A stretch of 64,000 nt of DNA, from the NCBI RefSeq assembly GCF_010078235.1, contig NZ_JAABOS010000006.1, forward strand, positions 186,001 to 250,000, given 5' to 3'. The first letter of the stretch is position 1, and each line of letters starts with the position of its first letter. The position numbers and the translations under genes are program-made. The notes under the pieces are model-generated. The model saw only the letters and a program-made list of their open reading frames with translations, was not told the DNA's origin and did no database searches. The DNA is from Cognatundibacterium crateris (GTDB taxonomy: Bacteria; Pseudomonadota; Gammaproteobacteria; Burkholderiales; Burkholderiaceae_D). Shown here piece after piece: positions 9,320 to 31,311 of this stretch.

Positions 9320-11563
9320 ATGCCTACTCAGCATAAGCATACCGGTCAGTCAGTGGGCGTCAACGCGCCTGCCGGTGAGTTGCTGCGCGCCTTAATCCCA
9401 ATTGCGACGCATTTGGTCGGGGCGCAAATTGAGGCAATGTCGGTGCGCTTATCGGCTGCTTTTCTGGCTATGTCTGAAACCAGCCAGGATTCGCGCGAAG
9501 CCAATCTGAGTTTTCATGCCGGACAGCTGCTGAAAAAAAATGCCTATGCTTTTTATTATCTGGTTGCAGCTGATATAGAGAAAGCCCTGCGTGCAGATAT
9601 CGACCAGCTGTTGTCGCCACAGCGTGTGGCGCAACCAGAAAAGAAGCTCGTGATGGAGCCCGATCTGAGTCTGGTGTCTTACGAAGAAATGGATAAAAAA
9701 CTGGCGCTGAGTCGCGCCAGTCGCAGCATAGAGCTTGATAACGCAGAGCAGTACACAGCGCTGAATATGCGCATCGCGCACCTGATGCAAAAAGAAGCCT
9801 TAAGCATAGCGCAAAACCCCTTCCGGCCAGAATTATTGCTGACCACACTGCATCAGGCCTGGTGTCAGTTTGATCCCGAAACAGGAACGCATGAACTGGT
9901 GCTGTCTTTACTGAGCCCCGATATCCTGTTTGATCTGGAACCGATACTGGCAGAGCTAAATCAGGCACTGGTCGCGAAAGGTGTGTTACCTGACTTGCAG
10001 GAATCGTACCGCATTCGCCGCCAGCTTCAGAAAAAGCTGGAAGAGCAAAATGAGCTGGGTGCAGCCACCGCCACCGAAGAAAAATTACGCCAGTACTTTG
10101 CACAAGGTGGCGCGCAGCATAGTGCCCAGACCGACAGGACACACCATGGACTGACGGGCAGTGGCCCTGCTGGCTCTGGTGTCTCAGGAAGCTCTTTGCA
10201 GCAGTTATCTGACTTTCAGAAAAGTCTGCAATTCCGTCAACTGATGTCGGAGGCCAAAGACGTACTGCGTTTGTCGCAGATGCGTGAACAGGCACCGGAA
10301 ATGTTTGCAACCGGCGTGGAAAAACAGACGCTGGATTTGCTGTCTCAGGTGTTCGACAATGTTTTCCGTAATCAGGCCATCCCGGCACAGGTGAAAGAAC
10401 TGATCTCTGTGCTGCAGATCCCGGTGCTGAAAGCGGCGATGATCGATAAAGAGTTTTTCTTTAACGAGCACCATCCGGCACGGCGCCTGATTGACCTGCT
10501 GTCGCGCTACAGTCCTGCGGTCAATTCTCAGCAGGCACAGCAAGATCCCCTGTTCCAGACTATGCAGCGCAATGTGCAGCGCGTCAGTGATGAATTCGAT
10601 CAGGAAGTAGCGCTGTTCGAAGAAGTTGTGAATGATCTGGAAGCATTCATTGCGAAAGAAGAGCAGGCCAGTGTGCAGGCCCTGCAGGCACCGATACAAA
10701 CTGCGCTGCGCAAAGAGAAAATCAAGCAGGCCAGCATGACTGCGACCCAAACCGTGGCGGTACGCGTTGGTACTGGCGAAGTGGTGGCTTTTGTGGAAAC
10801 CTTCCTGGAAAACCGCTGGATTAAGGTCCTGACCTTGGCTTACAGCGTGAAAGAAGAAAAACCCCAGGCTGTGGAAGATGCGATCCGTACCATGGATGAT
10901 CTGATCTGGAGCGTCAAACCCAAGATCACACTGCAAGACAGACAAGAGCTGCTCAACCGCTTGCCAGCGATATTGGCGCGCCTGAATAAATGGCTGAGTC
11001 TGATTAAATGGGATGATGCTGACCGCGTACGCTTTTTCGCGGAGCTGGCGGAATGCCATGCTTCCATCGTACGTGCGCCGCTGGAATTGTCACCCGATAA
11101 GCAGCTGGAAATTGCGGTCGAAGCGGCACAGCATGCAGCTGAGCGCAGACTGGAAATACGCGCCGAGGCGGAGAAGAAAGCACAGCAACAGGCCGAGCAG
11201 GAAGCCGCAGCGGATGATGATCCGGCCATACAGTTGGTCGAAGGTCTGGAGCGCGGTGTCTGGCTGGAGTTGCAGAAGCCAGATGGTGAGCCGGTTAAGG
11301 TCAGACTGGCCTGGGTCAGCCCTATGCGCAGCTTGTTTATTTTTACATCCAGTCAGAAAGAGCAGAGTTTTTCCATACCAGTCAAACAACTGCAACAGGC
11401 TTTCCGCGAACAGAAAGCCCGCTTACTGGAACTCGATAAAGTGGTAGACCGCGCCTTGATAGAAGCCCTGGGCAGCTTGCACCCTGACGATGTGACGCCT
11501 TCAGCAGAGCCAGGTGCCCCGATAACTGATACTGATGCCCGCGTATCAGTCACCCCTGACTGA
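9320..11563 (+). CDS. DUF1631 family protein
   Basis: A 747-residue soluble, helical, glutamine- and glutamate-rich protein of the DUF1631 family of beta- and gammaproteobacteria. Function unknown. Seen here: no signal peptide or membrane segment; a low-complexity Gly/Ser linker near residue 285 (SGPAGSGVSGSS); a coiled-coil-prone Ala/Glu/Gln stretch at about 590-640 (AEKKAQQQAEQEAA); and a compact C-terminal module (GVWLELQKPDGEPVKVRLAW...FIFTSSQKEQSFSIPV) with the look of a small PilZ-like beta barrel. The resemblance to PilZ, and so to c-di-GMP binding, is inference only; the RxxxR and DxSxxG motifs are not evident. Confidence 0.8.
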   Translation: MPTQHKHTGQSVGVNAPAGELLRALIPIATHLVGAQIEAMSVRLSAAFLAMSETSQDSREANLSFHAGQLLKKNAYAFYYLVAADIEKALRADIDQLLSPQRVAQPEKKLVMEPDLSLVSYEEMDKKLALSRASRSIELDNAEQYTALNMRIAHLMQKEALSIAQNPFRPELLLTTLHQAWCQFDPETGTHELVLSLLSPDILFDLEPILAELNQALVAKGVLPDLQESYRIRRQLQKKLEEQNELGAATATEEKLRQYFAQGGAQHSAQTDRTHHGLTGSGPAGSGVSGSSLQQLSDFQKSLQFRQLMSEAKDVLRLSQMREQAPEMFATGVEKQTLDLLSQVFDNVFRNQAIPAQVKELISVLQIPVLKAAMIDKEFFFNEHHPARRLIDLLSRYSPAVNSQQAQQDPLFQTMQRNVQRVSDEFDQEVALFEEVVNDLEAFIAKEEQASVQALQAPIQTALRKEKIKQASMTATQTVAVRVGTGEVVAFVETFLENRWIKVLTLAYSVKEEKPQAVEDAIRTMDDLIWSVKPKITLQDRQELLNRLPAILARLNKWLSLIKWDDADRVRFFAELAECHASIVRAPLELSPDKQLEIAVEAAQHAAERRLEIRAEAEKKAQQQAEQEAAADDDPAIQLVEGLERGVWLELQKPDGEPVKVRLAWVSPMRSLFIFTSSQKEQSFSIPVKQLQQAFREQKARLLELDKVVDRALIEALGSLHPDDVTPSAEPGAPITDTDARVSVTPD

Positions 11564-11661
11564 ACTGGTTTCTTTAGTACTAATCCACTCAAAACCGCAT
11601 CAGCAGACTAGCTGAAATGCTGCTTCAGATATTGCTCTGAGCAGCCTGCGGCGCGTGCTGC

Positions 11662-12612
11662 TCACTGCTCTTCATACGCTGGCAGCCGCATTTGTTCCTG
11701 TGTACTGAAATAACGATTCCTCAACGCGGATATTGACTGCGATAACTGCACCTCATTCAGTCCCATATTGAGCAAACTGCGGCGCTCATTCAGGTAACGT
11801 TGTATCCGCGATGTCCAGTCTGCTTCTTCTCTATCTACTTGTGCCAGCCGGTTTGCTGCATCCGGACTGATGGCGGCGGCGCGCATGCGATATACGTCAT
11901 CTTCACTGGCACCCTGGTTGCGCATGGCGTTTGCCTGTTCTTCCAGCCGTATCACTTGTAGTGGTGCGTTTTTCGCTTCTTTCAGATCTGCTGGTAAGTT
12001 CTCATCCAACGTGCGCAAACGCGTCTGCTTTTCAGCTTCCGTCAGTGCGCGGTTGTTCGCTATCTCCAGCCGCGCAATTGCATCCAGATCATACGCATCA
12101 TCAAAGCCAAACATGGCCTGACTTTCTTTGGCGCTGAAATACTGTAGCCGCAGATTTTGCATCGCCTGCCAGCGTGTACGCATAGCGGTCGCCATCATGG
12201 TGGCAGACTGAACTTGCTGTCCCAGCTGTTTTTCACTGTCGAATAAGGCTGTTTTATATTGCAGATAGCGTGCCAGCAACGCCTTGGCTTGTGCCGCAGC
12301 ATGTGGACGCAAGCGCTGGTCCAGCACTTTTTCGATTTCCTTGCGGATTTCAGCCAGCGATTTTTCTCCGGTGGCGGCCAGATAGTAATCAAACATTAAA
12401 CGCAATTCGGCATTGACCACCAGCTCGCCTTGCGCTTCTTCGAGCTTGCCATCGGTCTGCGTGCCCTCCATGGAGCGTACAAAAGACAAGTGCGTATCTG
12501 GCGCTGTTAGCTGAGCCCTGTCCTGCTGCTCAGTGAGTTTAGTGTTCCAGAAAGTGAAAAAAGCGGCGCTGCCTAACGCCGCTAAACCCAGAGTCCAGGT
12601 AAGTGTTTTCAT
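11662..12612 (-). CDS. lifO: Lipase secretion chaperone (foldase)
   Basis: Membrane-anchored periplasmic steric foldase for the lipase encoded just upstream. The 316-residue protein has one N-terminal membrane segment (residues 5-22, WTLGLAALGSAAFFTF), a variable linker, and the Lif motif RLMFDYYLAATGE beginning at Arg71, which matches the RxxFDY(F/C)LSA signature with one change, Ser to Ala. The rest is helical and Gln/Ala rich, as in the helical arms that wrap the lipase. It starts 28 bases after the lipase stop, so the pair is an operon. Confidence 0.93.
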   Translation of the reverse strand: MKTLTWTLGLAALGSAAFFTFWNTKLTEQQDRAQLTAPDTHLSFVRSMEGTQTDGKLEEAQGELVVNAELRLMFDYYLAATGEKSLAEIRKEIEKVLDQRLRPHAAAQAKALLARYLQYKTALFDSEKQLGQQVQSATMMATAMRTRWQAMQNLRLQYFSAKESQAMFGFDDAYDLDAIARLEIANNRALTEAEKQTRLRTLDENLPADLKEAKNAPLQVIRLEEQANAMRNQGASEDDVYRMRAAAISPDAANRLAQVDREEADWTSRIQRYLNERRSLLNMGLNEVQLSQSISALRNRYFSTQEQMRLPAYEEQ

Positions 12613-20185: not shown

Positions 20186-20584
20186 TTAATCCGGTTGCAG
20201 ATAGAACGCGTCCGGTAATTGCGCACCGGCGGTGGTGGTTTTGATGTCGCCTTTGAGATTGGTCAGGATGATTTCCAGCTCAGGACCGCCGAGTTCCAGC
20301 AGCACCTGGCGGCAGGCGCCGCAAGGGGCGATCGGGGCTTCGGTATTGCCGGTGACGGCGATTTTTGCGAATTCACGTGGGCGGTAGCCCGCCGCGATGG
20401 CTGAAAACAAAGCGGTGCGTTCGGCGCAATTGCACAGGCCGTAGGACGCATTTTCTACATTACAGCCCTGAAAAACTTTGCCATCTTTGGTCAGCAAGGC
20501 AGCGCCCACCAAAAAGCGCGAATACGGCGCATAGGCTTTTTCTCTGGCCTGATTGGCCAGGGCGATTAATTCCTGGTCTTGCAT
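20186..20584 (-). CDS. cdd: Cytidine deaminase
   Basis: Converts cytidine and deoxycytidine to uridine and deoxyuridine in pyrimidine salvage. From the ATG at 20584 the protein is 132 residues, the size of the homotetrameric Cdd class. Zinc ligands and general acid are Cys53 and Glu55 in NCAERTA and Cys88/Cys91 in PCGACRQV; the substrate motif is FLVGAAL with NVENASYG. The frame opens earlier (20749) but that part spans a terminator hairpin, so the inner ATG is chosen. It is adjacent to, but apparently transcribed apart from, the nucleoside uptake operon. Confidence 0.95.
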   Translation of the reverse strand: MQDQELIALANQAREKAYAPYSRFLVGAALLTKDGKVFQGCNVENASYGLCNCAERTALFSAIAAGYRPREFAKIAVTGNTEAPIAPCGACRQVLLELGGPELEIILTNLKGDIKTTTAGAQLPDAFYLQPD

Positions 20585-20638
20585 ATCGAAGTTCTCCGTA
20601 CCAGTCTTTGACTCGTCTGTCAGTGTTTCGTGTTGAGG

Positions 20639-20665
20639 AAAAAAAAGGCATGCCTCGCATGCCTT
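20639..20665 (-). terminator. Terminator of the nucleoside operon
   Basis: On the minus strand AAGGCATGC-GAG-GCATGCCTT (plus coordinates 20645-20665) is followed by a run of T. It lies between the oxygenase stop (20767) and the cdd start (20584), so it should end the long upstream transcript. Confidence 0.85.
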
Positions 20666-20766
20666 CAGAATTCTTTGCTGCTTATTTACTGCAAACAGAA
20701 GTCCGCACAGAATATGGCTGTCAGCCCGAAAAGCTGCCAGCAGCCGCATTCTGCCTGGGTCTCTGC

Positions 20767-21609
20767 TTATTTTTTCACGCCCAGTTCACGCAAACGTTCC
20801 TGCAGATAGCTGCCGGACGTGTGACGTTCAGACAGCACAACGTCAGGACGCGGATGCAGGAACAGTGGCAGCGAAATACGGGATTTCTTCGCTTCTTCGC
20901 CAGTCGGATTCAGCACGCGGTGGATGGTCGATGGGTAATAGCCTTGTGAGGCTTCATCGAGCATGTCACCGATGTTGACGATCAGCATACCGAAGTCGCA
21001 TGGCACATCATGCCAGGCGTCGTCCTTGCCCAGCACCTGCAGGCCAGCCTGCGTCGCTGCCGGCAAAACCGTCAGCAGGTTGATGTCACCATGGGCCGCA
21101 GCACGGACTGCATCCGGTTCTTCATCGCCATTCAGCGGTGGATAGTGCAATACGCGCAGCAGGGTCATGTCACTGTCGGTGATCATGTCCGACAAAGGCA
21201 TGGAGTACTTGGCTTTGATGTCTGCCGGGGTATGGTCTTCCACCCATTGCAGCAATTCTGTCGCCAGCTGATTGCCTTGTTCGTAGTATTCGCGTGCCGC
21301 GTTCGATACTTCCGACGGCACCCGGCCCCAAGGGTACACATGGTAGAACTCTTTCAGATCGCGTTTGGCAAAGCCTTTGGCGGTCTCGGAGACTTTAGGC
21401 GAAAAATAGCCATCCATTTTTTCAGTATCGTAGTTGTACTTGTGCTTCGCATCAGTCTGGAAGAACTCGTACCATTCCTGATAAATGGTGTTGAGCAGGG
21501 GTTGCGATAAAGGATGATTGGTCAATACGCCAAAGCCGGTCTGGTGCAGGCTTTCGGTGAATTTTTTCGCGGCATCCGGATCACGGTAATCGACAGGTTG
21601 TATCAGCAT
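20767..21609 (-). CDS. Isopenicillin N synthase-like 2-oxoglutarate/Fe(II) oxygenase
   Basis: Non-haem iron oxygenase of the isopenicillin N synthase/2OG fold, 280 residues, cytoplasmic. Iron ligands: His173 and Asp175 in AAHGDINLLT and His230 in STIHRVLNP; the co-substrate motif is Arg244-x-Ser246 in KSRISLPLF. The N-terminal DIOX_N-like domain has GFGVLTNHPLS. It is 13 bases after the nucleoside hydrolase stop and ahead of the terminator, so it appears to be the last gene of the nucleoside uptake operon. Substrate unknown: a nucleoside or free base is an inference from context. It could instead oxidise an unrelated metabolite. Confidence 0.88.
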   Translation of the reverse strand: MLIQPVDYRDPDAAKKFTESLHQTGFGVLTNHPLSQPLLNTIYQEWYEFFQTDAKHKYNYDTEKMDGYFSPKVSETAKGFAKRDLKEFYHVYPWGRVPSEVSNAAREYYEQGNQLATELLQWVEDHTPADIKAKYSMPLSDMITDSDMTLLRVLHYPPLNGDEEPDAVRAAAHGDINLLTVLPAATQAGLQVLGKDDAWHDVPCDFGMLIVNIGDMLDEASQGYYPSTIHRVLNPTGEEAKKSRISLPLFLHPRPDVVLSERHTSGSYLQERLRELGVKK

Positions 21610-21622
21610 TTTCCGCTCCCGA

Positions 21623-22612
21623 TTATGCCAGCGCTGGTTGCAGCCAGTCGCCGGACAGGGTCTGGTCGATCAGCTTAGCGCAGGCCTCGGCATCCACTTT
21701 CATGCAGACGCGGGTTTCCGGTTTGCTGACTTCCCAGCCTGCTTGCGGGTAAGGGATAGCGAGTTTCGCCATCATGGTCTGACCATTGCCTATGCCTTCT
21801 TTGGCAACGCGCACACGACCGCTCTGGGTTTCAAAGATTTCCGGTGCCACCAGCCAGACAAAGGCCAGTACGTCATGACCGTAGCAAGCGTGACCGAGGT
21901 CAGGGCGTATGCTTTGGTAGAAGTTTGCGTAGAAATTCACAGCGTGCGACAGGGTATCCATCGCTACGTGTTTATGTTGTTCTGCCAGACGTGCAAAGAA
22001 GCTCGATGGCAAGACCACACGGTGGGTAACGTCCAGACCAACCATGGTCAGGTCCCAGCCTGCGGTGAAGACCAGATCGGCTGCGTCCGGATCATTCCAG
22101 ACATTGGCTTCGGCGACCGGCGAGACATTGCCCGGTTCATCAACTGCACCCGCCATCAGTACGACTTTTTTCAGCAGCTTAGGCAGTTGTGGTTCCATTT
22201 TCAGTGCCAGACCCAGATTACCCAGCGGACCGACTGCGACCAGCGTGATTTCGCCCGGATGCTGACGCGCCATCTTGACGATGAATTCTGCTGCGCTTTC
22301 TACTTCAGCCTGACCACCGACTTCGATACGGGATGGCAGATTGCCGAGGCCGTCTGCGCCGTGGATGAAGTCTGGCGGCGTACCGGCCGCTTTTGCGAAT
22401 GGCACATTGACGCCTTGCGCAACCGGGATAGCGCGGCCTGCAATACGGGTCAGGTACAGGGCATTGATGGTCGCCTGTTCGACATAGACATTACCAAAGG
22501 TAGTGGTGATACCGACTACATCGATATCAGGATGGGCCAGCGCGAAATACAGCGCCATTGCGTCATCTACACCAGGATCTGTATCGAATATGACTTTATG
22601 TTTTGCTTGCAT
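21623..22612 (-). CDS. Nucleoside hydrolase (IunH/inosine-uridine type)
   Basis: Hydrolyses the N-glycosidic bond of ribonucleosides to base and ribose. The 329-residue protein has the calcium-binding N-terminal motif DTDPGVDDA at residues 10-18, TTFGNVYVEQA, and AEANVWNDPDAAD, then the C-terminal calcium-site segment HACYGHDVLAFVWLV. CTGGAG precedes the ATG. No signal peptide, so it acts on imported nucleosides. Ribose released here would be used by the ribokinase of the same operon. Base preference cannot be read from the sequence. Confidence 0.94.
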   Translation of the reverse strand: MQAKHKVIFDTDPGVDDAMALYFALAHPDIDVVGITTTFGNVYVEQATINALYLTRIAGRAIPVAQGVNVPFAKAAGTPPDFIHGADGLGNLPSRIEVGGQAEVESAAEFIVKMARQHPGEITLVAVGPLGNLGLALKMEPQLPKLLKKVVLMAGAVDEPGNVSPVAEANVWNDPDAADLVFTAGWDLTMVGLDVTHRVVLPSSFFARLAEQHKHVAMDTLSHAVNFYANFYQSIRPDLGHACYGHDVLAFVWLVAPEIFETQSGRVRVAKEGIGNGQTMMAKLAIPYPQAGWEVSKPETRVCMKVDAEACAKLIDQTLSGDWLQPALA

Positions 22613-22839
22613 GAAAATACTCCAGGAAATAGCTTCAGCTGGCCATTGGACAGAACCCAGTTTGAAGCGATTTGTTGTGTTTGACCTGGTTCAAGGAGGC
22701 CGAATTAAAGAGCTACAAGAGAATTGCAAAAGAGCTAAAAAAGAGCAAAAAAGAGCTCAATGTTCGATTTAAATGAATAAATCACCGGCAGCCAGTACGG
22801 GGCAACCCCATGCTGTTTGCCGGCAGGTTTTATAGTCTT
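22613..22839 (-). other. 227-bp gap with phased AGAGC repeats
   Basis: The gap between the second permease and the nucleoside hydrolase gene is longer than the other gaps in the operon. It carries AGAGC (GCTCT on the coding strand) at 22709, 22731, 22742 and 22752 plus an AGAGA at 22718, in an A-rich context; the last three are 10-11 bases apart. An internal promoter or protein site is possible; I found no clear -10/-35. Confidence 0.45.
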
Positions 22840-23811
22840 TTATCTTGACTTTACAAACGGCACGCCTATCGCCTTAGGCGCGACGGATTTCGCCATCAGG
22901 CCTGCAAGAACGACGACGGTTACTACATAAGGAATCATCTGTATCAATGATCCCGGCACTTTTCCTAAGCCAGGGAAGACCACGCCTTCAATCTGGACTT
23001 GCAGAGCAGTGAAAAAACCAAACATCAGGCAGCCCAGCGCCGTTTGCAGCGGACGCCAGTTACCGAATACCAGCGCGGTCAACGCCAGATAACCATTACC
23101 GGCTGACATATCGCGCAGGAAAAAACCACTTTGTACGATGGACAGATAAGCGCCCGAGAATGAGCACAGCAAACCGGCACACAGCATCGCCATAAAGCGG
23201 GTGCGTTCGACATTGACACCTGCTGCATCTGCTGCATGCGGATTTTCACCCACCGCGCGCAGGCGCAGGCCAAAGCGGGTGTGGTACAGCACCCAGTGCA
23301 CCAGCGGTATCAGTGCAAATGCCAGATACACCAGTGCACTGTGACCACCTATCAGGCGGGTGTATACCCAGCCCAGCAACGGTATTGAAGCCAGCGCTTC
23401 CGAACCTGGCAGCACGATGTCAAACAGGCGCGCTGCACCCAGATCCGGGGTACGGCCACCTTGCATGAAGAAGAACTGGGCAACGACGAAAGTCAGACCA
23501 CTAAGAGTGATATTAATTGCGATCCCGGCCACCAGCTGATTGCCTTTTTGGGTGATGCTGACAAAGCCTTGCAACAGCGCGATAGCGACCGATACGCCGA
23601 CTCCGGCCAGGATGCCCAGCCATGGATTTTGCGTCACATAGGCGACTGCGGCTGAGACAAAGGCCGATGCCAGCATCTTGCCTTCCAGCGCCAGATCAAC
23701 CACGCCGCTGCGCTCTGCAAACAGACCCGCCATGGCAGCGAAAATCAGGACCGGGGCATTACGTATGGTAGAAACCAGAATGCTGGAAAATTGAAAATCA
23801 TCAAACATCAT
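22840..23811 (-). CDS. ABC transporter permease, nucleoside (BMP) type
   Basis: Second inner-membrane permease of a BMP-type nucleoside importer. The 323-residue protein begins with a hydrophobic start and has the family signature APVLIFAAMAGLFAERSGVVDLALEGKML, followed by several membrane helices and the coupling region RAVGENPHAADAAGVNVER. It overlaps nothing but starts only six bases after the preceding permease stop. YufQ/NupC-type permeases of this kind pair with the upstream YufP-type one. Confidence 0.93.
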   Translation of the reverse strand: MMFDDFQFSSILVSTIRNAPVLIFAAMAGLFAERSGVVDLALEGKMLASAFVSAAVAYVTQNPWLGILAGVGVSVAIALLQGFVSITQKGNQLVAGIAINITLSGLTFVVAQFFFMQGGRTPDLGAARLFDIVLPGSEALASIPLLGWVYTRLIGGHSALVYLAFALIPLVHWVLYHTRFGLRLRAVGENPHAADAAGVNVERTRFMAMLCAGLLCSFSGAYLSIVQSGFFLRDMSAGNGYLALTALVFGNWRPLQTALGCLMFGFFTALQVQIEGVVFPGLGKVPGSLIQMIPYVVTVVVLAGLMAKSVAPKAIGVPFVKSR

Positions 23812-23817
23812 TTTTCC

Positions 23818-24900
23818 TCAGGATGGCTTACGTTTGAGCAGGGCAGTTAAAGCCGGTGCATACAGGTTTTCCATGGCGCCACAGAACAGGATAATCAGGC
23901 CCTGGATAAAGATAAAGGTTTCAGGTGGAATATTCGGTTTTTCCAGCGACAGATCGAAGCCACCCTGAATCAGCGCGCCAAACAGGATAGCGGATAACAG
24001 GATGCCAAGCGGATGCTGACGTCCCATGAGGGCAATCGCAATACCGATAAAACCGGCACCGGCCGGGAAGTTCAGATTCAGATAGTGGGTGGAACCCATC
24101 ACCGAGTTGACCGCGCCCAGACCTGCCAGCGCACCGGAAATCATCATAGTGACGATGATGGTTTTGCTGATAGAAATACCGGCATAGTGGGCCGCATGCT
24201 GATTCAGGCCGGTGGCGCGCAACTGATAGCCCCAGGTGGTGCGCCACACCGCCAGACCGTAAATGACCAGTGCCAGCAGCGCCAGAATAAAGCTGATGTT
24301 GAGTGGTGTTTCGCCCAGTATCGGTAAAATGCCATTGAGTTTAGGCAGCCAGGCGCTTTCAGCAAACACGCGGCTGGCGGTGTTTTGTTCGCCGGCCGGG
24401 ATCAGGAAGCTCACGATCACATAGTTCATCAGGCTGGCAGCGATAAAGTTAAACATGATGGTCGTGACCACCACGTGGCTGCCGCGTTTGGCTTGCAGAT
24501 AGCCAGGCAGAAAGGCCCAGGCCGCGCCGAATACCGCGCTGCCCAGCATGGCCAGCGGGATCAGCGCCCAGCCCGGCAGACTCGCATCGAGTGCCAGCAC
24601 CACCAGTGTCAGCCCCAGACCGCCGATATACATCTGGCCTTCGCTGCCGATATTAAACAAGCCAGCCTGCATCGCAATCGACACCGATAAACCGGTGAAG
24701 ATAAAGGTCGCTGCATAAAACAAGGTGTAGCCCAGACCTTCAGGGTTAAATACAGCCGCGTTGAGCAGGATGCCCAGTGATTCCAGCGGACTTTCACCCA
24801 GCAGATAAATCACGCCTGCTGCGACCAGCAAGGCTGACAGCAGATTCAACAGGGGCAGGGCAAAGGCAGTGGCCCAGCGAGGCAGATCGGTTTGGTTCAT
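23818..24900 (-). CDS. ABC transporter permease, nucleoside (BMP) type
   Basis: First permease of the same importer, 360 residues. Visible are about eight to ten membrane helices, the segment LSVSIAMQAGLFNIGSEGQ and the coupling motif RATGLNQHAAHYAGISISK, both typical of YufP-type permeases. The gene lies between the ATPase and the second permease, spaced by 59 and 6 bases. Together with the ATPase and BMP-type binding protein it forms a complete importer. Confidence 0.93.
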   Translation of the reverse strand: MNQTDLPRWATAFALPLLNLLSALLVAAGVIYLLGESPLESLGILLNAAVFNPEGLGYTLFYAATFIFTGLSVSIAMQAGLFNIGSEGQMYIGGLGLTLVVLALDASLPGWALIPLAMLGSAVFGAAWAFLPGYLQAKRGSHVVVTTIMFNFIAASLMNYVIVSFLIPAGEQNTASRVFAESAWLPKLNGILPILGETPLNISFILALLALVIYGLAVWRTTWGYQLRATGLNQHAAHYAGISISKTIIVTMMISGALAGLGAVNSVMGSTHYLNLNFPAGAGFIGIAIALMGRQHPLGILLSAILFGALIQGGFDLSLEKPNIPPETFIFIQGLIILFCGAMENLYAPALTALLKRKPS

Positions 24901-24959
24901 ACGTATCGTCTTAAAGAATTACTCTGGTGACGCTTGACTGTCCGGGTAGGACAGCCGCA

Positions 24960-26489
24960 TCAGTGTTTGTGTAAGCCACCCATTAACAGGCCGATGCGGG
25001 TAGCATCAAATTCTTCTACTTTCAGTTCGCCGGTAATGCAACCGCCTGACATCACCAGGATGCGGTCAGCCAGCGCGCGTACTTCTTCCAGCTCTACCGA
25101 GACCAGCAAAATCGCAACCCCGGCATCGCGCATCGCGAGCAGGCGTGCATGCAGGCTTTCTATGGTGCCGATATCGACGCCACGGGTAGGCTGACCGACT
25201 AAGATCAGTTGCGGATTGGCCGCCATTTCGCGCGCCATCACGACTTTTTGCTGATTACCGCCGGACAGCAATGCGATACGCAAATGCGGATCGGACGGAC
25301 GCACATCAAACTGTGCCAGCAAATTCTGGCAATTTTTCAGAATCGATTTGTAATCCAGCCAGCCTAAGCTTTTGCCCAGTTTTTTCTGGTAACCGAGGAA
25401 GCTGTTCATCATGACCGAGAAGTTTTTGACTACCGCGTCACGCAGCCGGTCTTCCGGTACATGGGCGATACCGAGTTCACGGAAGGTAGCTGGCAAGCCA
25501 TCGGCATCCTTGCGTCCGGCATACGGCAAAGCCTTGCCCTGCATGCTGATGTCGCCCGCCGTAGGCAGACGCATACCGCTCAGAATTTCGAGTAATTCGC
25601 TCTGACCATTGCCGGAAACACCGGCGATGGCGACGATTTCACCGGCGCGGATTTGGAAATTGATGTCTTTCAGCAGACTGACTTGCTGGGCATTGATCAG
25701 GTTGAGGCCTTTCACATCGAGCACCGTCGCGCCCGGCGCATACGGCGCGCGCGGCAATTGGGTCTCGATAGGGCGGCCGACCATCAGTTCTGCCAGTTGT
25801 TCTTTATTGGTTGCTGCTGTTTGTACCGCACCCACCACCGTACCGGCACGCATCACGGTGACTTCGTCCGTGATATCCAGGATTTCCTGCAGCTTGTGGG
25901 TAATCAGGATGATGGTTTTGCCTTGTTCTTTGAACAGGCGTAATACTTCGAACAGGGAAGCGGTTTCCTGTACCGTCAGCACCGCGGTCGGTTCATCCAG
26001 AATCAGGATGTTCGCGCTGCGGTAAATCTGCTTCAGGATTTCCACCCTTTGCTGCACGCCGACCGATAAATCCTCAATCTTGTCGAGCGGATCAACGTCG
26101 AGTGAATAGCGCTGGCAGATGTCACGCAATTGCTGCTCAACCTGTTTGCGGTTTTTTTGCAGACGGAAGCCACCTTCGCCGCCCAGCATTACATTGTCGA
26201 GCACGGTCATGTTATCGACCAGCATAAAGTGCTGATGCACCATGCCGATGCCGAGACCGATTGCCTCATGGCTGTTACGGATATCCTGTTGCTGACCGTT
26301 GATCAGCAATTTGCCGCCATCGGCACGGTAGTAACCGTACAGGATACTCATGAGTGTGGACTTACCTGCGCCATTTTCGCCGATGATGCCGTGGATCGAT
26401 CCTTGCGCAATGGAGAAGCTCACATCGCGATTGGCTTGTACTGCGCCAAAGCGTTTGGAGATGTGTTGAAATTCGACAGCTGGCTGCAT
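24960..26489 (-). CDS. ABC transporter ATPase with two nucleotide-binding domains
   Basis: Energises the nucleoside importer. The 509-residue protein carries two ABC domains. N-terminal domain: Walker A GENGAGKST at residues 37-45, signature LSVGVQQRVEIL, Walker B ILILDEPTAVL. C-terminal domain: degenerate Walker A GVSGNGQSE lacking the lysine, signature LSGGNQQKVVMARE and Walker B LILVGQPTRGVD where Gln replaces the catalytic Glu. Such an asymmetric second domain is usual in YufO/RbsA-like ATPases, so only the first site is expected to turn over ATP. Confidence 0.95.
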   Translation of the reverse strand: MQPAVEFQHISKRFGAVQANRDVSFSIAQGSIHGIIGENGAGKSTLMSILYGYYRADGGKLLINGQQQDIRNSHEAIGLGIGMVHQHFMLVDNMTVLDNVMLGGEGGFRLQKNRKQVEQQLRDICQRYSLDVDPLDKIEDLSVGVQQRVEILKQIYRSANILILDEPTAVLTVQETASLFEVLRLFKEQGKTIILITHKLQEILDITDEVTVMRAGTVVGAVQTAATNKEQLAELMVGRPIETQLPRAPYAPGATVLDVKGLNLINAQQVSLLKDINFQIRAGEIVAIAGVSGNGQSELLEILSGMRLPTAGDISMQGKALPYAGRKDADGLPATFRELGIAHVPEDRLRDAVVKNFSVMMNSFLGYQKKLGKSLGWLDYKSILKNCQNLLAQFDVRPSDPHLRIALLSGGNQQKVVMAREMAANPQLILVGQPTRGVDIGTIESLHARLLAMRDAGVAILLVSVELEEVRALADRILVMSGGCITGELKVEEFDATRIGLLMGGLHKH

Positions 26490-26558
26490 ACGTTCAGGAT
26501 GTTAGGTTCGGCGGAACGGGTGAAAAGGATCAGGACTATGGAACTGAGTAATGAATCA

Positions 26559-26578
26559 GGGCGCATTTTACTGCGCCC
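26559..26578 (-). other. Hairpin between binding-protein and ATPase genes
   Basis: GGGCGCA and TGCGCCC, 7-base arms with a 6-base loop, lie between the BMP stop (26598) and the ATPase start (26489). No U tract follows, so it more likely protects the upstream message or damps read-through than terminates. Such hairpins often raise binding-protein levels over membrane parts; that role is inference. Confidence 0.5.
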
Positions 26579-26597
26579 CGCTGAATTACTGTATGGG

Positions 26598-27593
26598 TCA
26601 GACCGGGCACTTATTGGCATCGCGGAAGTCGACCACTTTCACTTTGCCATTGATGATGTCTTGTTTAGCGGCGTTGATGCGTTTTTCCATCTCGGCGCTG
26701 ACGACACTGCGGTTATCTTTATCGAGCGCCCAGTCCACGCCGCCTTCTTTCAGGCCTTTGTAGACGGTGCCGCCTTTCCAGTCACCATTCTTCATTTGCA
26801 TGAAGCTGTCATAAATCGCCTGGTCAACGCGTTTGACCATGGACGTCAGCATACTGCCCGGATGCATGTAGTTTTGATTGGAATCCACACCGATGCCGAG
26901 CTTACCTTTTTCTTTGACTGCTTGCAGCGTACCCATGCCACTGCCGCCAGCTGCGGCAAAGATCACGTCCACACCGCGTTCAAACTGCGCACGCGCCAGT
27001 TCGCCGCCTTTGGCCGGATCATTCCAGGCCGCAGTGGTGGTGCCCACCATGTTTTGCAGAATTTCGATTTTACCGTCAGTTGCTTTGGCACCCTGCGCAT
27101 AGCCGCAAGAGAAATTGCGGATCAGCGGGATGTCCATACCACCGATAAAGCCGACTTTTTTCGATTTGCTGGCCAGTGCTGCTGCCACGCCAACCAGATA
27201 CGAGCCTTCCTGTTCCTTGAACAGTACCGAACTCACGTTGTCACCTTTGGCGATGCCGTCGATCAGAACGAATTTAGTGGCCGGGAATTCTTTGGCGATA
27301 TTCTGTACCGCCTGCGCCTGCGCAAAGCCGATTGCTGCGATCAGGTCGACTTTTTTGCGCGCCAGATTGCGTAATACCTGTTCAGTCTGGGTGTCACTCG
27401 CGACCTGCACTTCCATGAAACCGATCTTGGTCTCTTTTTTGAAGCGTTCTGCGCCTTCGGAAGCAGATTGATTGAAGGACTTATCAAATTTGCCGCCTGC
27501 ATCGTAAATCACCGCAAACTTAGGGTCTGCAGCATGGGCGCTGGCTGCAGTCAACAGAGCAGCCAGAGTCAGGCAGAAAGGTTTGAGTTTCAT
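26598..27593 (-). CDS. BMP-family nucleoside-binding protein
   Basis: Periplasmic solute receptor of the importer, 331 residues. The signal peptide is residues 1-22 (MKLKPFCLTLAALL...AHA) with no lipobox cysteine, so the mature protein should be free in the periplasm, unlike Gram-positive lipoprotein homologues. Family features are FAVIYDAGGKFDKSFNQSA at the N-terminus, GGMDIPLIRNFSCGYAQGA and GVDSNQNYMHPG. Known BMP proteins (PnrA, YufN) bind purine and pyrimidine nucleosides; base preference here is unknown. Confidence 0.94.
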   Translation of the reverse strand: MKLKPFCLTLAALLTAASAHAADPKFAVIYDAGGKFDKSFNQSASEGAERFKKETKIGFMEVQVASDTQTEQVLRNLARKKVDLIAAIGFAQAQAVQNIAKEFPATKFVLIDGIAKGDNVSSVLFKEQEGSYLVGVAAALASKSKKVGFIGGMDIPLIRNFSCGYAQGAKATDGKIEILQNMVGTTTAAWNDPAKGGELARAQFERGVDVIFAAAGGSGMGTLQAVKEKGKLGIGVDSNQNYMHPGSMLTSMVKRVDQAIYDSFMQMKNGDWKGGTVYKGLKEGGVDWALDKDNRSVVSAEMEKRINAAKQDIINGKVKVVDFRDANKCPV

Positions 27594-27747
27594 GAGAGCT
27601 TCCTTATTCAGATGTCGTAGTGTGAGGGATGCAGACGCTTAACGATAGTCAGATCTTCACCAGCCTAACATGGCGAACACCTCTGGCTCACCATGGAATA
27701 AAAATTTTATCAAATCCCGCGCTGTATTCGGGGATGTAATCTGTCAC

Positions 27748-28674
27748 TTATGCTTTACGGGCTGCCATGAAGGCCAATACTTCTGCCCTTTGTGGTATGG
27801 AAGTCTGCGCACCCAGTTTGGTCACGGTCAGTGCCGCAGTATATTGCGCTTCCTGGCTGGCTTCCAGCAGCGATAAGCCATTGGCGATGCCGACGGCAAA
27901 CGCGCCAACGAAGGTATCACCTGCCGCCGTTGTATCGACCACATCCACCCGGATCGCCGGAATGAACTGGCTCTGACCTGCTTGCGTGATCAACGCGCCG
28001 TGGCCGCCCATGGTCAGTAAGACCTGGCCGACACCCATGGCCAGTAATTTTTCAGAGGCTGCCTGAGCACTGGCATTGTCAGTGACGGCGATGCCACTCA
28101 GTTGACCGGCTTCAGTTTCATTCAGGATCAGGTAATCCACCTGAGCCAGCAGTGCCGGGCTCAGATCCTGTGCCGGAGCCGGATTGAGGATGACCTTGAC
28201 ACCGGCGGCACGCGCGGTAGCGATCGCCCGGGTGACGGTGTCCAATGGTGTTTCTAACTGACACAGCAGGATTTGCGCAGCGCGGATATCCGCTGCTGCC
28301 GCATCTATATGGGCCGGGGTCAGTGAGGCATTGGCACCAGCAGCCAGCACGATGCTGTTGCTGCCATTGTCTTCCACCAAAATACCGGCTACGCCTGTAG
28401 CGACGCCGGGAATGCGGCTCAGATGAGTCAGGCTGATGCCGTCAGCGGACAGAGATTGCTGAGAAAAATCGCCGAAGCCATCATCGCCGACTGCGCCGAT
28501 AAAGCGTACATCTGCTCCCTGACGGGCTGCAGCAACTGCCTGATTCGCGCCTTTGCCGCCGGGTATCTGACGGAATTCGTGTCCATGCAAAGTCTCGCCC
28601 ACCGCAGGCATACGCGGTGTGCGGAAGACCAGATCCATATTAACGCTGCCGACAACGCATATCTGTGGCTTCAT
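27748..28674 (-). CDS. rbsK: Ribokinase
   Basis: PfkB-family kinase that makes ribose-5-phosphate from ribose. The 308-residue protein has the N-terminal motif IPGGKGANQAVAAARQGADV and the anion-hole/catalytic motif DTTAAGDTFVGAFA near the C-terminus; AAGDTF is the form seen in RbsK. It is the first gene of the nucleoside uptake operon, 34 bases after a LacI-type operator. In this context its substrate is ribose set free by the nucleoside hydrolase. No ribose ABC or RbsD genes lie here. Confidence 0.93.
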   Translation of the reverse strand: MKPQICVVGSVNMDLVFRTPRMPAVGETLHGHEFRQIPGGKGANQAVAAARQGADVRFIGAVGDDGFGDFSQQSLSADGISLTHLSRIPGVATGVAGILVEDNGSNSIVLAAGANASLTPAHIDAAAADIRAAQILLCQLETPLDTVTRAIATARAAGVKVILNPAPAQDLSPALLAQVDYLILNETEAGQLSGIAVTDNASAQAASEKLLAMGVGQVLLTMGGHGALITQAGQSQFIPAIRVDVVDTTAAGDTFVGAFAVGIANGLSLLEASQEAQYTAALTVTKLGAQTSIPQRAEVLAFMAARKA

Positions 28675-28707: not shown

Positions 28708-28727
28708 AATCGTTTGCGCAAACGATT
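28708..28727. promoter_or_regulatory. LacI-family operator, perfect 20-bp palindrome
   Basis: AATCGTTTGCGCAAACGATT equals its own reverse complement and has the CG-TTTGC/GCAAA-CG layout of LacI/RbsR-family sites. It covers the predicted transcription start (about 28725) of the rbsK operon. The regulator gene is not in this window. Confidence 0.75.
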
Positions 28728-28731
28728 TCGT

Positions 28732-28760
28732 ATTTAACTATGGGCGAAACGCCTAGTCAA
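28732..28760 (-). promoter_or_regulatory. Promoter of the rbsK nucleoside operon
   Basis: On the minus strand TTGACT (28760-28755), a 17-base spacer, then TTAAAT (28737-28732). A good -35 and a 4/6 -10. The palindrome just downstream would block it when bound. Confidence 0.6.
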
Positions 28761-29236: not shown

Positions 29237-29294
29237 GATAGCCAGCGTAGCCCTGGCAACTTGCCTCCCCTAGAAAGAAACTGTGATCCCTGAA

Positions 29295-30404
29295 ATGAAC
29301 AGCTTGTCCAGAAAAGAGCATTTGCTGCGGCTGATACAGGCCCATCCTGCAGTCACTCAGCAAGAGCTGGCCGATCAGTTGCAATTGTCACGTTCGGCCG
29401 TGGCCGGTTATGTGGCGGCACTGATACGCGAAGGCAAGATACTGGGCCGTGCCTATGTCTTACCGGATAGCCGGCCAGTCGTGTGCATAGGCGGTGCCAA
29501 TCTGGATCGTAAGTTGCGTACCCTGAGCGATTTGCAAATGGGTACCTCGAATCCGGTCAGCCAATATGAAAGCTTTGGCGGTGTGGCGCGTAATGTGGCC
29601 GAAAACCTCGCACGTTGTGGTCAACGCGTGCAGTTAATGAGCATAGTCGGTGATGATACTGCCGGTCAGGCCATACTCAGCTATAGCGCTGAGCAGGGCA
29701 TAGATACCAGCGCTTGCCAGACCCTGGCTGGCGTCAGCAGCGGCAGTTACACAGCTGTGCTCGATCCGCAAGGCGAGATGGTGCTGGCACTGGCGCAGAT
29801 GGATGTGTGCGAACGGCTGGACCCGCATTTTCTGCGCTCGCGCCAGCGTCAGCGCAGCGCAGCTGCCATGATAATTGCTGACTTGAATTTGCCAGCCGAC
29901 AGTCTGAGCTTATTACTGCAGGAAGCGCAGCAGCAACAGCAGCAAATTCCGCTGGTGCTGATCGCGGTCTCACAACCGAAAATGCAGCGCCTGCCTGCGC
30001 AATTGCAGGGCTTAAGTTTGCTCATACTGAATCATGGTGAACTGGAACAGCGCGCCGGACAGGCTTTGCCGGATCAGGCCGCGATACAGCAAGCTGTTGC
30101 TACACTGCGTGCACAAGGCGTGCAGGATGTGATTGTCACCATGGGCAGCGCAGGTGTCTTGTGCACCCGGCCTGATACCGATTTGCTGACGGCGATACCT
30201 GCGCCACAGTGTGAGGTGGTGGATGTGACCGGTGCTGGCGATGCCTTCAGCGCTGGCGTTTGCTACTCCTTATTGCAGCAAGCTACACAATTAGAACTCG
30301 CTTGCCAGCGCGGACAGCAAATGGCGGCACTGACTTTGCAGAGTAGCCGGACCGTGTCTGAGCGCCTGCACCCTAACATTTTTCAAGAGGAAAGCTATGC
30401 ATAA
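29295..30404 (+). CDS. psuK: HTH-fused pseudouridine kinase (PfkB family)
   Basis: Phosphorylates pseudouridine to pseudouridine-5'-phosphate. From ATG 29295 (GTG 29283 is an alternative) the protein is 369 residues. Residues about 5-52 form a winged helix-turn-helix ([20 protein letters not shown]...[18 protein letters not shown]). Residues 61-369 are a PfkB kinase with [18 protein letters not shown] and the catalytic GAGDAF at 313-318 (Asp316). It overlaps psuG by eight bases, which fixes the pathway. The fusion suggests that the kinase may also bind its own control region; that is inference. Gln-rich stretch at 211-218. Confidence 0.9.
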
Positions 30405-31311
30405 TTACCTGGTATTTTCAGCAGAAGTTCAGGCCGCACGCGAGGCTGGCAAGCCAGTGGTCGCGCTGGAGTCGACCATTATTTCTCACGGTATGCCTTA
30501 TCCGCAAAATGTGCAGACCGCCAAAGAAGTGGAACAAATCATTCGTGATCATGGCGCAGTGCCAGCCACGATAGCGATCATGAATGGCAAAATCCATATT
30601 GGCCTGTCCGATGCGGAACTGGAATTGCTGGGCCAGTCGCGTGATGCGATTAAGGTCAGCCGCCGTGACCTGCCTTATGTGCTGTCTACCGGCAAACTGG
30701 GCGCGACCACGGTGGCCGCAACTATGATCTGTGCCGAACTCGCAGGTATCAAGGTATTCGTCACTGGCGGCATAGGCGGTGTACATCGCGGCGCCGAAAC
30801 CAGTTTTGATATTTCTGCTGATTTGCAGGAGCTGGCGCAGACGTCGGTAGCTGTAGTGTGCGCGGGTGCGAAATCTATCCTCGATCTGGGACTTACATTG
30901 GAATATCTGGAAACCCATGGGGTGCCTGTCGTCAGTGTCGGCCAGGAAGCCTTCCCGGCCTTCTTTACGCGTGACAGTGGCTTCCGTGCTGACTTCCGTT
31001 TAGATACGGCGCAACAGCAGGCAGCCTTCCTGAACACCAAATGGGCACTGGGCTTACAAGGTGGTGTCGTGATCGCCAATCCGGTGCCGGAAGCGGATGC
31101 CATGCCTGCAGCCGAGATCGAGGCGATTACGCGTCAGGCTTTGGATGAGGCGCAGCAGCAGGGTATAGGCGGTAAAGCAGTCACGCCTTTCCTGTTAGCA
31201 CGCATCAAGGAACTGACTGCTGGCCGCAGTCTGGTCACCAATATCGCGCTGGTGAAAAACAATGCGGTATGTGGAGCACAGCTTGCGCTGGCATTGAACC
31301 AGACCGCATAA
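30397..31311 (+). CDS. psuG: Pseudouridine-5'-phosphate glycosidase
   Basis: Splits pseudouridine-5'-phosphate into uracil and ribose-5-phosphate, breaking the C-C glycosidic bond. The 304-residue protein has the N-terminal [19 protein letters not shown], the catalytic-lysine region [33 protein letters not shown] and the [18 protein letters not shown] segment, all typical of PsuG/IndA. The start overlaps the psuK end (ATG inside the last psuK codons) after GAGGAAAG. A long-loop terminator follows. Confidence 0.97.

Follow-up and report, generated by a model that had tools for sequence, protein, structure and literature searches.

A recurrent gene pair of a nucleoside hydrolase and a putative 2-oxoglutarate-Fe(II) oxygenase suggests a plausible oxygenase role in bacterial nucleoside use

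A stretch of 64,000 nucleotides from Cognatundibacterium crateris (assembly GCF_010078235.1, contig NZ_JAABOS010000006.1, positions 186,001 to 250,000 of the forward strand; hereafter the window) contains a gene for a nucleoside hydrolase (NH) directly upstream of a gene for a putative 2-oxoglutarate (2OG)-Fe(II) oxygenase (OX). Both belong to a predicted operon that looks built for nucleoside import and cleavage. We found that NH-OX is a real and recurrent gene pair; a role for OX beside the hydrolase is plausible, although predicted. Because this pairing is found in two separate bacterial lineages, OX probably acts on nucleosides or on parts of them and may unmask chemically modified ones.

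OX (280 amino acids, positions 20767-21609) and NH (329 amino acids, 21623-22612) are the last of seven genes on the minus strand (20767-28674), whose coordinates, strand and order in the open reading frame (ORF) list agree with a first-pass annotation of the window. Reading in the direction of the genes, a ribokinase gene (RK, 27748-28674; PF00294, TIGR02152 at 358.9 bits over a cut-off of 299.65) is followed by genes for a BMP/PnrA-type substrate-binding protein (26598-27593; PF02608, 237 bits), an ATP-binding cassette (ABC) ATPase with two nucleotide-binding domains (24960-26489; PF00005 in two stretches) and the two ABC permeases PermA (23818-24900) and PermB (22840-23811; both PF02653). 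All seven proteins score above the Pfam gathering cut-offs. The binding protein, ATPase and two permeases have the composition of a PnrA/BMP-type ABC importer, which from its family and neighbors would carry nucleosides; among the NCBIfam models the binding protein matches one alone, for a putative B6 transporter protein, at 99.6 of 400 bits and below the cut-off. NH is of the inosine-uridine type (PF01156, 290 bits) and stays below the NCBIfam equivalog cut-offs for RihC (199.8 of 382 bits) and RihA (174.6 of 433 bits), so by its scores it is a PF01156 member and neither a RihA nor a RihC equivalog.

Within the genus of the window, a DNA-level search recovered both genes close together in 41 of 43 genomes (34 with one match, 7 with two) and either gene alone in none; in the other two genomes, G959 (73% complete) and G961 (95%), this search detected neither. 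Among the best 80 of 537 confirmed OX loci (the named loci, a sample biased toward close relatives), 22 have NH directly upstream of OX, and the titles of all 22 are betaproteobacterial. Twenty of these also show RK, and the other two contigs are only 3.7 and 5.1 kb long. Further neighbors among the 22 are BMP (14 loci), PsuG (8) and cytidine deaminase (5). The nearest named locus, from Undibacterium rugosum (L067), has an OX that is 99% identical and carries all operon genes, the cytidine deaminase and the psu pair described below, with the gene order unchanged and identities of 89-100%. The position of the transporter varies. In Undibacterium it is flanked by RK and NH; it is upstream in L125 and absent from the 20 kb examined in Solimicrobium L074; in L076, L077, L078 and L086 it sits with PsuG/PsuK, divergent from RK-NH-OX. 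NH-OX is thus the constant core of these loci, with RK wherever the contig is long enough. In L125, a Rhodoferax metagenome-assembled genome, a UshA-like 5'-nucleotidase gene (10850-12472; PF02872, PF00149) comes directly after OX. Three of 200 genomes of the order carry an NH relative at E <= 1e-40, two of them at 42% and 36% identity.

The pair recurs in the class of genome G205, where a search at E <= 1e-25 detected OX relatives in 35 of 385 genomes. Six of the 20 loci fetched from this class are linked (L183, L184, L185, L188, L190 and L196), which together with L059 from G205 itself gives seven. All seven contain BMP, the ATPase and both permeases, with NH in six, RK in five and cytidine deaminase in four, in a gene order that differs from that of the window. 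The contig of L196 ends, its NH lying on another contig with an OX fragment; genes for uracil phosphoribosyltransferase and thymidine kinase come next in this locus. NH relatives at E <= 1e-40 are present in 89 of 372 genomes of the class. Nine genomes have an NH that shares 49% identity or more with the linked one, a threshold chosen after the list had been inspected, and OX stands beside NH in eight of them. These eight are G205, G661, G677, G773, G848, G765, G672 (an OX fragment at a contig end) and G745 (the start of OX at a contig end, recognized by eye in a translation), and in the ninth, G115 (NH 56% identical), OX is absent beside NH. Just below the threshold, G805 (48%) has RK-NH without OX and G854 (46%) has OX on a different contig. 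The pairing is tight for one type of NH, not for NH at large.

Phylogenetic analysis places the two groups of linked OX apart. For a first tree 120 loci were reduced to 62 rows, leaving out L067, L149, L151, rows shorter than 230 amino acids (except L196) and stand-alone rows more than about 80% identical; a second tree and an approximately unbiased (AU) test used 60 rows, from which the long rows L193 and L199 had also been dropped. In the tree of 60 rows the 22 beta rows (the window and 21 loci) form one clade with support of 100/97. The 7 alpha rows fall apart from it, and their own unity is weak (60/19, with two changes in the first tree). A single clade of all 29 linked OX was rejected with p-AU 5.65e-48, a test that presumes a group named beforehand; the linked group was defined by gene context, yet after the first tree. 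Either linkage arose twice, or it is ancestral and was often lost; in both cases shared selection explains it most simply.

OX itself is a member of the 2OG-Fe(II) superfamily of the IPNS/DAO-like type, with PF03171 at 64.0 bits (cut-off 23), PF14226 at 41.8 bits (cut-off 27.3), an HxD...H triad and an RxS motif. The first-pass annotation had described His173, Asp175 and His230 with Arg244-x-Ser246 as intact, and we confirmed this: none of them varies in an alignment of 14 sequences or among the 62 rows of the wider set. Isopenicillin N synthase also has the RxS motif, which by itself is no proof of 2OG use; we infer from the sequence that OX uses 2OG. The Pfam scan returned no domains other than these two at E <= 0.001, PF05721 (PHYH) being absent, and the NCBIfam models gave no match at the same threshold. 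At E <= 1e-40, 32 of 398 genomes sampled from the phylum and 15 of 200 from the order have OX. Ratios of non-synonymous to synonymous substitution (dN/dS) range from 0.013 to 0.097 in eight comparisons, of which some have saturated dS and two give identical values, perhaps from one species.

The closest solved structure by sequence is 3ON7, a putative oxygenase from Shewanella oneidensis (SO_2589), with 391 bits over residues 2-278. It is followed by 3OOX, an ancestral construct of the ethylene-forming enzyme (9OVH, E 1.5e-16, the best match of named function), several plant enzymes and thymine 7-hydroxylase (3e-11). An AlphaFold2 model of OX (mean predicted local distance difference test score 88.8) searched with Foldseek likewise ranked 3ON7 and 3OOX on top. 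Next came Neurospora crassa thymine 7-hydroxylase (E 2.6e-22, 22-24% identity), the first enzyme of known function in the list. The first-pass annotation had named this hydroxylase among the relatives of the fold; this holds for the closest fold of known function, but by sequence the ethylene-forming and plant enzymes outscore it. A gibberellin oxidase follows close behind in the fold ranking (3.9e-20), so the rank of thymine 7-hydroxylase is a weak hint.

Taken together, these data allow us to propose a route in which the BMP-ABC importer would bring in ribonucleosides from RNA turnover. The target of OX would then be a modified nucleoside. Its oxidation, most likely of a methyl group lost as formaldehyde, would yield the canonical ribonucleoside. 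This would be split by NH into base and ribose, and RK, which its family assigns above the cut-off, would convert the ribose to ribose 5-phosphate. That OX is in this way a 2OG-dependent partner of NH, acting on a modified nucleoside before cleavage and most likely as a demethylase, is the reading we prefer, at somewhat less than an even chance. Its most specific form, 2'-O-demethylation, leads by analogy with the enzymes FJS and PHYHD1, yet taken alone it is doubtful. Summed over the readings that give OX some role in a nucleoside pathway, including two of the alternatives below, such a role is very probable; all these gradings are judgements. The idea of a modified nucleoside, already raised in the first-pass annotation, draws some support from PsuG in 8 of the 22 linked named loci and from demethylation of 2'-O-methyl nucleosides by another oxygenase family, as described in the accessible text of PMC12709175, and the substrate itself is a prediction.

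Several observations weigh against this proposal. No NH lies near OX in 58 of the 80 named loci, where OX and generic ATPase matches are the only hits to window genes at >= 60 bits. Of 20 anonymous loci fetched wide, 19 show no NH by OX, the linked exception being L059, and neither NH nor BMP is present in 65 of the 73 loci taken with short flanks (1.5 kb), the remaining 8 having one or the other; this short set overlaps the other locus sets and includes the window itself. The survey of the gene pair that the first-pass annotation had suggested as a check on the tie between OX and nucleoside metabolism thus cuts both ways: the pair is kept in the genus and recurs in a second lineage, yet most OX genes seen lie away from nucleoside genes, the outcome it had named as counting against the idea. 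The active-site residues are identical in linked and stand-alone rows (62 rows), so one chemistry is likely family-wide and the substrate must also make sense in stand-alone genomes. Among 46 hand-picked OX carriers (18 linked and 28 stand-alone, of which G007 and G446 were classed from short loci alone), 14 of the 28 stand-alone genomes lack a PF01156 hydrolase. In the class of G205, fetched NH regions below 49% identity have no adjoining OX ortholog, including seven further regions at <= 45%. No formaldehyde-handling gene was recognized by eye beside the operon, where no search was aimed at such genes. OX also lacks the PF05721 domain to which FJS and PHYHD1 belong, as far as these are described in the text available. 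Finally, the hydrolase RK9NH splits 2'-O-methyluridine and 2'-O-methylcytidine unaided, according to the available part of PMC6278475, so an oxygenase step is not required by every hydrolase.

Residues L85, F88 and Y225 of OX occur in the two linked groups alike and less often in stand-alone rows, a pattern that may be convergent change or chance and that our proposal does not use.

Alternatively, OX may oxidize the free base that NH releases, either like thymine 7-hydroxylase or by hydroxylation or N-demethylation of another base, which we regard as rather unlikely. Thymine 7-hydroxylase, as noted, is the closest fold of known function, and its 2OG residues R190, L192, Y194, R286 and S288 and stacking residue F292 align with R152, L154, Y156, R244, S246 and F250 of OX (5C3P-5C3S; accessible sections of PMC4787775; the chain index is the paper's numbering +2, as deduced from motifs). 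Of the three thymine contacts compared (F292, Y217 and N294), however, Y217 is replaced by I176 and N294 by H252 in OX, a Phe at the stacking position is also found in 3OOX and 9OVH, and the sequence ranking puts the ancestral ethylene-forming enzyme and plant enzymes ahead. No isoorotate-decarboxylase-like neighbor was recognized by eye, with no search aimed at one. A lead for base oxidation, and no more than a lead, comes from L244 (3159-17047), where a more distant IPNS-like oxygenase is divergent from a nucleoside hydrolase and accompanied by an AtzD/TrzD ring-opening amidohydrolase (PF09663), a further amidohydrolase and a BMP transporter, possibly a cluster for pyrimidine or nitrogen-ring catabolism. 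We rejected this oxygenase as an OX ortholog: its family is broad, with 113 plasmid records, and the neighboring genes vary in the three records read. Two other loci with IPNS-like genes were observed. On the P. putida plasmid pKF715A (L253) one lies by a BMP binding protein, hpxO, Rieske-type oxygenases and a glutathione S-transferase, resembling a purine or methylxanthine cluster. On a Candidatus Megaera plasmid (L151, 3570-6765) two adjoining genes, 26% and 32% identical to OX, are preceded by genes for a glutathione synthase and a hypothetical protein.

A pyrimidine-deoxynucleoside 2'-hydroxylase acts in the thymidine salvage route of fungi. By analogy, OX could 2'-hydroxylate 2'-deoxynucleosides to ribonucleosides that NH can cleave, which we consider improbable. 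The fungal step is named in a reference title of PMC4787775, as far as this source was accessible, and no paper naming the gene for this hydroxylase was found in open-licence PMC literature. In favor of this reading, RK9NH, a hydrolase of this kind, shows no activity (0%) on dU, dC, T or dA and 3% on dG in the portion of PMC6278475 available. Neither deoC nor a pyrimidine phosphorylase was found in genome G000, and deoC is present in 2 of the 18 linked and 17 of the 28 stand-alone genomes tested. However, deoC is rare in the order generally (23 of 200 genomes), which gives its absence little weight. Within the order the gene is also more frequent among OX carriers than among the other genomes (8 of 15 against 15 of 185, p 3.4e-5 with kinship ignored; both counts are taken as the same 200 genomes from shared handles), the opposite of a replacement. 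We therefore dropped the idea that OX replaces the deo pathway. The 28 stand-alone genomes include 14 with a PF01156 hydrolase, 17 with deoC and 25 with at least one of the two; this content suits a step from modified to canonical nucleosides and fits replacement of the deo route less well. It is similarly improbable that OX has a general function outside nucleosides and was merely captured into the operon in two lineages. OX is stand-alone in most loci seen, and representatives of the 45 largest neighbor clusters of 100 loci, read by eye and without a family scan, revealed no recognizable nucleoside neighbors of stand-alone OX; nor did annotated plasmid records of Tistrella and Salinivibrio. 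Distant nucleoside genes would escape both surveys. Two separate captures by the same partner and a similar gene set, with no separation in 41 genomes, are nevertheless hard to explain without a shared pathway.

The first-pass annotation had proposed a single transcript from a promoter at 28760 to a terminator at 20639-20665. An intrinsic-terminator-like hairpin of 10 pairs with a T tail is indeed found near the claimed end (20644-20666, minus strand), but the candidate promoter TTGACT-17-TTAAAT (28732-28760, minus strand), placed by eye, fails the consensus scan. The region has 20 terminator-like sites where 9.5 are expected, so a lone site is weak evidence; promoter-like sites are fewer than in shuffled sequence (3 against 6.5). 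NH and OX are tightly spaced, with 13 bases between them and GGGAG ahead of the OX ATG, and the 227 bases between permease and NH leave room for another promoter. From the gene layout, one transcript for all seven genes is plausible. A perfect palindrome, CGTTTGCGCAAACG (28711-28724), lies between the candidate promoter and the ribokinase start (one match, 0.10 expected) and is a possible operator; of 20 linked loci inspected, L067 alone shares it.

Additional neighbors extend the seven-gene set. Beyond the hairpin lies a cytidine deaminase gene on the minus strand (20186-20584, within ORF 20186-20749, the start codon at 20584 being placed by eye). Divergent from the operon on the plus strand is a pair (29283-31311) encoding a helix-turn-helix (HTH) PfkB-type kinase (29283-30404; PF00294 and HTH) and a PsuG-like protein of the Indigoidine_A family (30397-31311; PF04227, 443 bits), which from family function we take to be a pseudouridine-5'-phosphate glycosidase. 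The best NCBIfam models for the kinase are 'sugar kinase' PRK09954 (186.9 of 561 bits) and pseudouridine kinase (128 of 540 bits), both below cut-off.

Among known systems, FJS and PHYHD1 share the logic that we propose for OX, being 2OG-Fe(II) oxygenases whose substrates are free modified nucleosides. A paper of December 2025 (PMC12709175, as far as its text was accessible) presents their demethylation of the free 2'-O-methyl compounds as previously unidentified and describes the catabolism of 2'-O-methylated nucleosides as largely unexplored; for FJS it used complementation of an E. coli pyrimidine auxotroph. They differ from OX in family, PF05721 as opposed to PF03171, and in the accessible text the sole mention of an operon concerns the E. 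coli pyr operon and that of a gene cluster RK9NH. In RK9NH clusters the hydrolase stands with an aldolase, with a ribokinase nearby in related genomes, and was proposed to serve 2'-O-methyl nucleosides; unlike in our NH-OX pair, the methylated nucleoside is cleaved directly by the hydrolase, and an oxygenase is not mentioned in the part of PMC6278475 available. We found no paper on the NH-OX pair in open-licence PMC literature, nor a relevant one under the locus tag SO_2589. The ethylene-forming construct 9OVH shares 25-27% identity with OX and ranks 22-23 by fold, behind thymine 7-hydroxylase. 3OOX (CC_0200, a putative 2OG-Fe(II) oxygenase from Caulobacter), the second closest solved fold at 30% identity, differs from OX as part of a broader family. 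SO_2589 (3ON7), by comparison, resembles OX in fold and over its full length, with 57-60% identity over 276-278 columns and TM-scores of 0.89-0.91 by query length. Both 3ON7 and 3OOX are counted among enzymes with still undefined functions in the accessible part of a 2023 review (PMC10467617). RNA turnover is a source of modified nucleosides, and NH-OX would represent a small two-enzyme pathway open to testing; even with an ordinary substrate, the genomic link points to a substrate class for assay. We tentatively suggest, with clearly less than even confidence, that the 3ON7 family is an unrecognized bacterial 'nucleoside unmasking' oxygenase that converts 2'-O-methyl, otherwise 2'-blocked or 2'-deoxy nucleosides into ribonucleosides cleavable by the hydrolase, an activity reached independently of the PHYH-type FJS and PHYHD1, and that has been kept with the hydrolase as a two-gene unit in two bacterial classes. 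If true, the solved structure 3ON7 would gain a function.

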